Positions 138-2,154 of a DNA stretch of 64,000 bases are shown here, one piece after another. The stretch is from Muribaculaceae bacterium (GTDB taxonomy: Bacteria > Bacteroidota > Bacteroidia > Bacteroidales > Muribaculaceae), in assembly GCA_022510405.1 (NCBI GenBank), contig JAFLTP010000017.1, positions 1 through 64,000 of the forward strand. The letters run 5' to 3'. The notes beneath the pieces were generated by a model. The model saw only the letters and a list, made by a program, of their open reading frames with translations. It searched no databases and was not told the DNA's origin. Made by a program: the position numbers and the translations under genes. The first letter of the stretch is position 1. Each line of letters opens with the position of its first letter.

Positions 138-890
138 TTATTTTTGGATGTTATAGCCTTGAGCCTTGAGATAATCAAGGATCTTATACTCCATTGCATG
201 ACGATAATATTCAAGGATATGGCCACACCAATCATTGTCGGTGGTACCACCGGAACGAGTTTCGTTATAATGTTTCACAATCTTGTCATATTCCATCAAG
301 TCCTTAGTAAGTTTAGCCGGATCCTGTGAATATGAATTTTTAAAGAACACTGTTTCATTTGCCTGCTTTGGTTTCAAATCAGGATGTTCACGAGGAATTC
401 CTAATGCCAGCCCACATACCACAAACACTCCTTTGGGTAATTTCAACAATTCTGCTACTTTAGCCGGATCAACTGTTCTTAAATAGCCGACACAGTTACT
501 TCCTAACCCTGCGGCTTCAGCAGCGACCACTGCACTCATCATAGCCAGCGATGCATCCACGATTCCTATTATGGTTCCGTCCATAGTATCAGTGAAAGGG
601 GGCATGTCTAAATTCTTCTCTTTAGCTAAGAGTTCCATTTTATGATAATCGGAACAGAAAATCAAAAGACGGTTGCAGGTTTTAAGTTGTTTTTGACCCG
701 TCAGTTCATAAAGTTGTTCTTTCAATTCCTGGTCATCGATATCAATTACAGAAAATTGTTGACCATTATAGCTTGTAGGAGTATTTCGAATGGCATCGAA
801 AATAAAATCCATTGTTTCCTGAGGAATTGCCTCTCTTTCGTAACGACGAATACTTGTGCGTTCAAGAAGAACTTTTTTTACTGATTCCAT
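138..890 (-). CDS. NADPH-dependent nitroreductase / flavin reductase (NfsA-FRP type)
   Basis: A 250-residue cytoplasmic flavoenzyme of the nitroreductase superfamily, expected to bind FMN and reduce nitro-compounds, quinones or free flavin with NAD(P)H. The N-terminal ERTSIRRY is the classic FMN-phosphate-binding start of the family. NTPTSYNGQQ supplies the next FMN contact, and EAAGLGSNCVGYLR is the conserved central stretch. Length and the extra C-terminal helical part fit the NfsA/FRP branch better than the short NfsB branch. The ATG start is supported by the conserved beginning. It stands alone, downstream of a terminator-bearing structured RNA, so it may be controlled by that leader. The true substrate cannot be read from sequence. 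Confidence 0.85.
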   Translation of the reverse strand: MESVKKVLLERTSIRRYEREAIPQETMDFIFDAIRNTPTSYNGQQFSVIDIDDQELKEQLYELTGQKQLKTCNRLLIFCSDYHKMELLAKEKNLDMPPFTDTMDGTIIGIVDASLAMMSAVVAAEAAGLGSNCVGYLRTVDPAKVAELLKLPKGVFVVCGLALGIPREHPDLKPKQANETVFFKNSYSQDPAKLTKDLMEYDKIVKHYNETRSGGTTDNDWCGHILEYYRHAMEYKILDYLKAQGYNIQK

Positions 891-948
891 ATGATAAGTT
901 TTATGCTATGAGTTATTAGTTTTGATTAATTAATAGGGAGAAAAGAGA

Positions 949-985
949 AAACCGATGAAAGAAAAATTTCGTTTCATCGGTTTTA
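949..985 (-). terminator. Strong intrinsic terminator of the structured RNA
   Basis: A perfect 13-bp stem, AAAACCGATGAAA against TTTCATCGGTTTT, with an 11-nt loop. On the minus strand it is followed by CTCTTTTCT. It sits about 60 nt upstream of the nitroreductase start, so it either ends an independent RNA or acts as an attenuator. Confidence 0.75.
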
Positions 986-1201
986 TAAGGGCCACACCAA
1001 AGTAAATTAAGATGAAACTCCGATAGTCAGGATTTGAGTGCCACCTGCACCTTTGTAATCCGCCTGCGCCCCAAAAGGGCAACATCATGAAGATGTGGGG
1101 CCCGCCATTGATGCAGTTGCGTTTCTCGGTTTTTCATTAAAAATTGATGAGTTTCCCAATAATCTTTGATGTGGTTTAAGTTTATTTTTTTCTCATCTTA
1201 T
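949..1201 (-). ncRNA. Structured RNA of about 190-250 nt with own promoter and terminator; 6S-like or leader RNA
   Basis: A minus-strand transcript should start near 1201, just below an exact TTTG-N19-TATATTTG promoter, and end at the strong hairpin 949-985. Nested long-range pairings are visible. CCACATCAAAG (1164-1174) pairs with CTTTGGTGTGG (992-1002), and GAAACTC (1149-1155) pairs with GAGTTTC (1014-1020). CTGCA (1112-1116) pairs with TGCAG (1045-1049). The apex has GCCCC/GGGGC and ACATC/GATGT. This long irregular rod closed at its ends resembles 6S RNA in size and shape, but I do not recognise a family sequence. Alternatively it is a regulatory leader of the nitroreductase: GTTTCATC near 1011-1018 could pair instead with GATGAAAC in the terminator arm. 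No credible ORF lies inside. Confidence 0.6.
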
Positions 1202-1207
1202 GTAATG

Positions 1208-1238
1208 CAAATATAATAGGTTTGGGTCAAATTGCAAA
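1208..1238 (-). promoter_or_regulatory. Sigma-ABfr promoter for the structured RNA
   Basis: On the minus strand, TTTG (1235-1238), exactly 19 nt, then TATATTTGC (-7 box at 1208-1215). This is a full match to the Bacteroidota housekeeping consensus TTTG-N19-TAnnTTTG. Confidence 0.75.
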
Positions 1239-1377: not shown

Positions 1378-2154
1378 TCAATACGAAATAAACACAGGAA
1401 GCCCGGGTTTCGAATGATCGGGGGAGAAAACAAAATCAGGGGAATCAATTGAAATAAGCTGTTGGAAGGATTGAATGTCTTTTTGCAAGATCAGCCTGTA
1501 CATCAGTCCTCTTAGTTCTTTCAATCTTTTTGCAATAGGGGTTTTAAATTTACCATCCGAGGTGATTGTTTGAAAACAAATTTTATGAACTGAAGAAAAG
1601 GCTCTAATAATTTTCCAATCAAGACATTTGTCAGCATCTCCCGGCAATAGATTTATAATATCTTTTACTTTATTTTCTTTAATGAAATTTACTATATCAA
1701 TCGTATTTTTCAGTTTAAAGAGCTGAATTGGTGTTTTATTATCCGGAGCGATAGACTTGTTAAATTCACTTCTGTATGGTTTTATTATATCAAAAGGTTT
1801 TAAAACGCCATAAACAGAAGATATAATTCTTAGATTTTGTTGCGATTCATCTAATTTTTCAGCGGGAATTGATTTAATATCCAAAGCCCTAAAAGCTTGA
1901 CCGATGAAAGCGTCTAAAGCTTTTATTCCGGTAATTTTATGGGGGAATTCATAAGCCAATGTCCGTGCTTTTATTGCAAGTTGATTGCTTATTCCCATCA
2001 AGGACGCTATTTCCGTAGGTGATTTTTGAGCCATAAATGCCATAATGGCATCCGCAGTGTCCTCAAAAACGGGCTTATGATTTTGAAATTCAACGTCTGA
2101 GATCGGGAACTGAGAACCAGACATTGTTTTAGATTCCGCAAGAAGAGTCAACAT
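1378..2154 (-). CDS. yaaA: Peroxide stress protein YaaA (UPF0246/DUF328)
   Basis: A 258-residue member of the YaaA family, a cytoplasmic DNA-binding protein that limits iron-driven oxidative damage after peroxide stress in E. coli. The start MLTLLAESKTM matches the family start (MLILISPAKT-like), which fixes the ATG. The conserved interior is seen in SVYGVLKPFDIIKPYR, near residues 110-125. Full length is normal for the family. The start codon lies only 6 nt after a terminator-like hairpin, and a second hairpin precedes that, so expression is probably set by this leader. The next gene downstream on the same strand is the nitroreductase, after an independent RNA unit. Confidence 0.9.
   Translation of the reverse strand: MLTLLAESKTMSGSQFPISDVEFQNHKPVFEDTADAIMAFMAQKSPTEIASLMGISNQLAIKARTLAYEFPHKITGIKALDAFIGQAFRALDIKSIPAEKLDESQQNLRIISSVYGVLKPFDIIKPYRSEFNKSIAPDNKTPIQLFKLKNTIDIVNFIKENKVKDIINLLPGDADKCLDWKIIRAFSSVHKICFQTITSDGKFKTPIAKRLKELRGLMYRLILQKDIQSFQQLISIDSPDFVFSPDHSKPGLPVFISY

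Follow-up and report, generated by a model that had tools for sequence, protein, structure and literature searches.

6S RNA is laid out as a closing stem, a helix P2, a central bubble and an apical arm, and B. subtilis 6S-1 has in addition a central bubble collapse helix (PMC8876501). In the Bacteroidetes, where the promoter consensus is TTTG / TAnnTTTG, dRNA-seq has detected a 6S RNA in Bacteroides thetaiotaomicron together with product RNAs of two classes (PMC7366714). Bacteroidales-1 was described by Weinberg et al. 2010, who tabulated it as a likely RNA with its cis-regulatory and switch status undecided (PMC2864571); Rfam holds the family as RF01693 with the label "6S-Bacteroidales RNA suggested". 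Here we describe an RNA gene of this family in a 64,000-nucleotide stretch of a Muribaculaceae genome (the window) and compare it with the known 6S families.

Identity, promoter and terminator

The preliminary description of the window had judged a 250-nt region, left unexplained by the open reading frames, to fit a 6S-like RNA, and had listed Bacteroidales-1 among the Rfam families to scan. The scan matched that very family. By cmscan, positions 984-1176 of the minus strand align with the full RF01693 model (1-179 of 179) at 93.2 bits and an E value of 6e-14, the gathering score being 60 bits; at E up to 1, no family in all of Rfam except RF01693 matched the stretch. This is the one RF01693 copy in the 3.0-Mb genome. 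The window RNA shares with the family the conserved blocks GGGAAACTCATCAA, ATGGCGGGCC, GGATTACA, CTCAAATC and GGAGTTTC, although its score remains below those of the best members, which reach 184 bits.

Upstream of the RNA on the minus strand lies a predicted Bacteroidetes housekeeping promoter, TTTG-N19-TATATTTG (1208-1238), composed of a -33 box TTTG (1235-1238) and a -7 box TATATTTG (1208-1215) separated by a spacer of 19 bases. It agrees with the consensus at 10/10 positions; when the 150-base upstream stretches were shuffled with their composition kept, 5 of 1,440 shuffles scored as well. Judging from the position after the -7 box, transcription is predicted to start at about 1201-1204 (minus strand). 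The segment between this start and the conserved RNA, 1175-1204 (minus strand), differs in length and sequence among relatives and is probably trimmed as an unconserved 5' leader. At the other end, an intrinsic terminator with a 13-bp stem occupies 948-984 of the minus strand, in which AAAACCGATGAAA (972-984) pairs with TTTCATCGGTTTT (948-960). Nearly every Bacteroidales relative that was read has a stem-loop after the RNA, the stem differing in sequence from one to another, and both the promoter and the terminator are conserved among relatives. The full promoter consensus and the 13-bp terminator noted in the preliminary description are thus both present, on the minus strand.

With a probability of roughly 0.93, the segment 984-1176 on the minus strand is a 6S RNA gene of the RF01693 family, of the type found in Muribaculaceae-type Bacteroidales, with a housekeeping promoter and a terminator of its own. 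Nothing about it calls for a new RNA class: the family is known, and this is one more ordinary member.

Of 37 genomes of the genus, 31 contain RF01693, the present genome among them, and several other Bacteroidales families have it as well. The nearest named relatives, as determined by the nitroreductase encoded next to the RNA, are Muribaculaceae and other Bacteroidales assemblies and MAGs, with up to 92% protein identity. The six genomes of the genus lacking an RF01693 match gave none even with a model built in this analysis. These absences are probably assembly gaps rather than losses, because no close nitroreductase orthologue is present in five of the six either, and the sixth has that gene 200 bases away from the end of a contig.

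Fold and covariation

Folding of the minus strand yields -73.2 kcal/mol compared with -54.7 ± 5.0 for shuffled sequences (z = -3.69), and 0 of 200 shuffles folded as well; the fold of the plus strand is weaker (z = -1.84). The 33 relatives were aligned with MAFFT (alignment A1) and a consensus was derived by RNAalifold; it is rod-shaped and open in the middle. In the structure named from it, 95.8% of cells are paired across the relatives. Two-sided changes occur in 19 pairs versus 9.8 ± 1.6 in shuffles, with a covariation score of 0.281 versus 0.143 ± 0.008; the observed values were reached by none of 500 shuffles and by no slid register. Inverted repeats that arose by chance in AT-rich intergenic DNA, a reading that has the AT-richness in its favour and nothing else, would have to produce the Rfam E value, this covariation beyond all shuffles and the fold z-score together, and its probability is negligible.

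The closing helix P1 pairs CCACATCAAAG (1164-1174) with CTTTGGTGTGG (992-1002), both on the minus strand, over 11 bp including one G-U. Nine of its 11 pairs show two-sided changes, and 97.8% of cells are paired in the 33 relatives. Inside P1, helix P2 is formed on the minus strand by a 5' strand at 1149-1158 (GGGAAACTC near 1157-1149, containing GAAACTC) and a 3' strand at about 1010-1020 (GAGTTTC near 1020-1014); the GAAACTC/GAGTTTC core of 7 bp can be extended to about 10 by pairing 1149-1158 with approximately 1010-1020. P2 shows no two-sided changes in the 33 relatives, with 97.9% of cells paired, because its sequence is nearly invariant; it is neither supported nor refuted by covariation. 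The two sides of the central bubble then follow on the minus strand, the 5' side (1128-1148) unpaired in the consensus and the 3' side (1021-1035) unpaired in the tested structure, the latter carrying the highly conserved CAAATCcTG. The apical arm (1036-1127, minus strand) carries the conserved ATGGCGGGCC ... GGATTACA, and 10 of the 12 pairs of its stem have two-sided changes in the same relatives.

Thus, the fold is of the 6S type: a closing stem is followed by P2, the centre is an open bubble, and an apical stem completes the rod. Covariation shows the closing and apical stems. The deposited RF01693 model pairs the apical part only and leaves P1 unpaired, so the covariation of P1 in the window RNA and its relatives extends that structure slightly. 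The long-range helices of 11 and 7 bp and the apical stem-loop of the preliminary description are all present on the minus strand. It had also proposed a search for covariation in homologues, which was found in P1 and the apical stem and is absent from P2. Its 6S-like reading is borne out by the 93-bit RF01693 match, the covarying pairs of P1 and of the apical stem, and the conserved promoter and terminator.

Relation to the nitroreductase gene

The RNA lies between two protein-coding genes of the same strand. Upstream is a gene for the peroxide-stress protein YaaA (1378-2154, minus strand; PF03883, E 3e-43), and the order YaaA-RNA recurs in three other loci (L022, L031 and L102). Downstream, outside the RNA, is a nitroreductase-family gene (138-890, minus strand; PF00881, E 7e-18). 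In the genus (the window, L004 and L007-L031), the nitroreductase gene comes next after the RNA, in the same orientation, at 25 of 27 loci, and the other two are cut by contig ends. This arrangement alone would allow the RNA to be a leader, a cis-acting switch or attenuator of the nitroreductase in which the terminator competes with a GTTTCATC/GATGAAAC antiterminator. The window does contain such 8-base alternative pairings, GTTTCATC/GATGAAAC as the antiterminator and TAAGATGA/TCATCTTA as the leader pairing. The preliminary description had pointed out both and held a switch-like leader to be as good a fit as a 6S RNA.

Conservation argues against that assessment. Of the 33 relatives, only the window has an antiterminator pairing of at least 7 bases, and two have a leader pairing of that length, so the pairings described earlier exist in the window but neither is conserved. 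Terminator stems stand 3' of the RNA almost everywhere, yet their sequences differ. The RNA and the nitroreductase also occur apart. In the other Bacteroidales families sampled, no nitroreductase was found within about 1.5 kb of the RNA; conversely, three loci (L039, L042 and L043) encode nitroreductase orthologues of 83-90% identity with no RNA directly upstream. In the close relative G358, the RNA resides at a separate locus (L103), where it has a promoter and a terminator to itself and no nitroreductase. The next long frame there is convergent and, judged by eye, resembles xseA (exonuclease VII large subunit), leaving no co-directional gene behind the RNA. A second genome, G359, represents a weaker case of unlinking, its contig ending just after the RNA (L102).

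The unlinked G358 copy has a promoter and terminator of its own and no co-directional gene after it, which is the reason why we regard the RNA as a predicted free-standing gene and not a leader. The riboswitch or attenuator leader was rejected on the unconserved alternative pairings together with this unlinked copy, and retains in our estimate a very slight probability; the equal standing given to it earlier does not hold.

Other 6S families and a possible mechanism

A search of the whole genome with the canonical 6S model (RF00013, which includes E. coli ssrS and B. subtilis 6S-1) gave no match at E 0.001. The same search matched the E. coli, B. subtilis and other controls and left a Bacteroides control genome unmatched; the model is therefore a poor test for Bacteroidetes. 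The Bacteroides control genome does match RF01693. From this match and the Rfam description, the 6S gene reported in B. thetaiotaomicron (PMC7366714) would correspond to the RF01693 locus. The window RNA resembles canonical 6S RNA in its rod-like order of closing stem, P2, open bubble and apical stem, the layout given in PMC8876501, and in its length of about 190 nt. It differs in being unmatched by RF00013 and in its neighbouring genes, and it would serve a Bacteroidetes sigma factor with TTTG/TAnnTTTG promoters.

The 6S-Flavo family (RF01685), which did not match the window at E up to 1, meets RF01693 elsewhere. Three loci that belong to other Bacteroidia families (L034-L036, at approximately 1501-1665) are matched by both models over identical bases and in the same orientation, RF01693 at 38-41 bits, below its cut-off, and RF01685 at 49-97 bits, with one of the three above its cut-off of 85. 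Because of this coincidence, the two families look homologous; in the Rfam output, neither is assigned a clan. In a separate locus, L022, a sub-threshold PrrB/RsmZ match at 2412-2551 (28 bits versus a cut-off of 44) is probably due to chance.

The proposed link between the window RNA and canonical 6S RNA draws on the fold, on the RF01693/RF01685 relationship and on B. thetaiotaomicron. Alternatively, the molecule could be a structured Bacteroidales-1 RNA whose family consists of trans-acting sRNAs of another kind. Such a reading would fit the failure of RF00013 to match and the wording of Rfam, which goes no further than "suggested" on whether RF01693 is 6S RNA; it sits poorly with the 6S layout of the fold, with the overlap of 6S-Flavo on the same molecules in L034-L036 and with the 6S RNA and product RNAs reported in Bacteroides (PMC7366714), and we consider it quite improbable.

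If the RNA is a 6S RNA and functions by analogy with the known ones, its open central bubble would mimic an open promoter and bind RNA polymerase carrying the primary sigma factor as growth slows. Upon the return of nutrients, the polymerase would copy a short product RNA from the strand comprising the 5' side of the bubble and P2, and this synthesis would open P2 and free the polymerase. The 5' strand of P2 is the likely template region for the product RNA, at about 1149-1160 of the minus strand (GAGUUUCCC...). A counterpart of the B. subtilis 6S-1 collapse helix can also be drawn, in which the 5' bubble sequence AUGAAA..CCGA (1137-1126) would pair with UCGG..UUUCAU (1023-1012) of the P2 3' strand. 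In most relatives this candidate helix exceeds shuffled sequences in stability (mean z -2.1), and its covariation among relatives does not rise above that of shuffles; a Bacillus-type collapse helix in the window RNA is only a suggestion.

A wider proposal would place the 6S RNAs of all Bacteroidia in a single homologous family, with RF01693 and RF01685 as its two ends and with release by a Bacillus-type collapse helix, and would have 6S transcription in this genus read through into the nitroreductase gene. Such read-through may be likened to the linkage of ssrS with ygfA in E. coli. Taken as a whole, we regard this proposal as speculative and rather unlikely.

The value of these results is small and methodological, lying in the P1 covariation and in the RF01693/RF01685 overlap. 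The former provides a covariation-backed closing helix where the Rfam model has unpaired bases. The latter could let Rfam place both families in one clan, which would aid the annotation of 6S RNA across the Bacteroidota, where the canonical model fails. For the organism itself, 250 nt that previously had no explanation are most probably a housekeeping 6S RNA gene.
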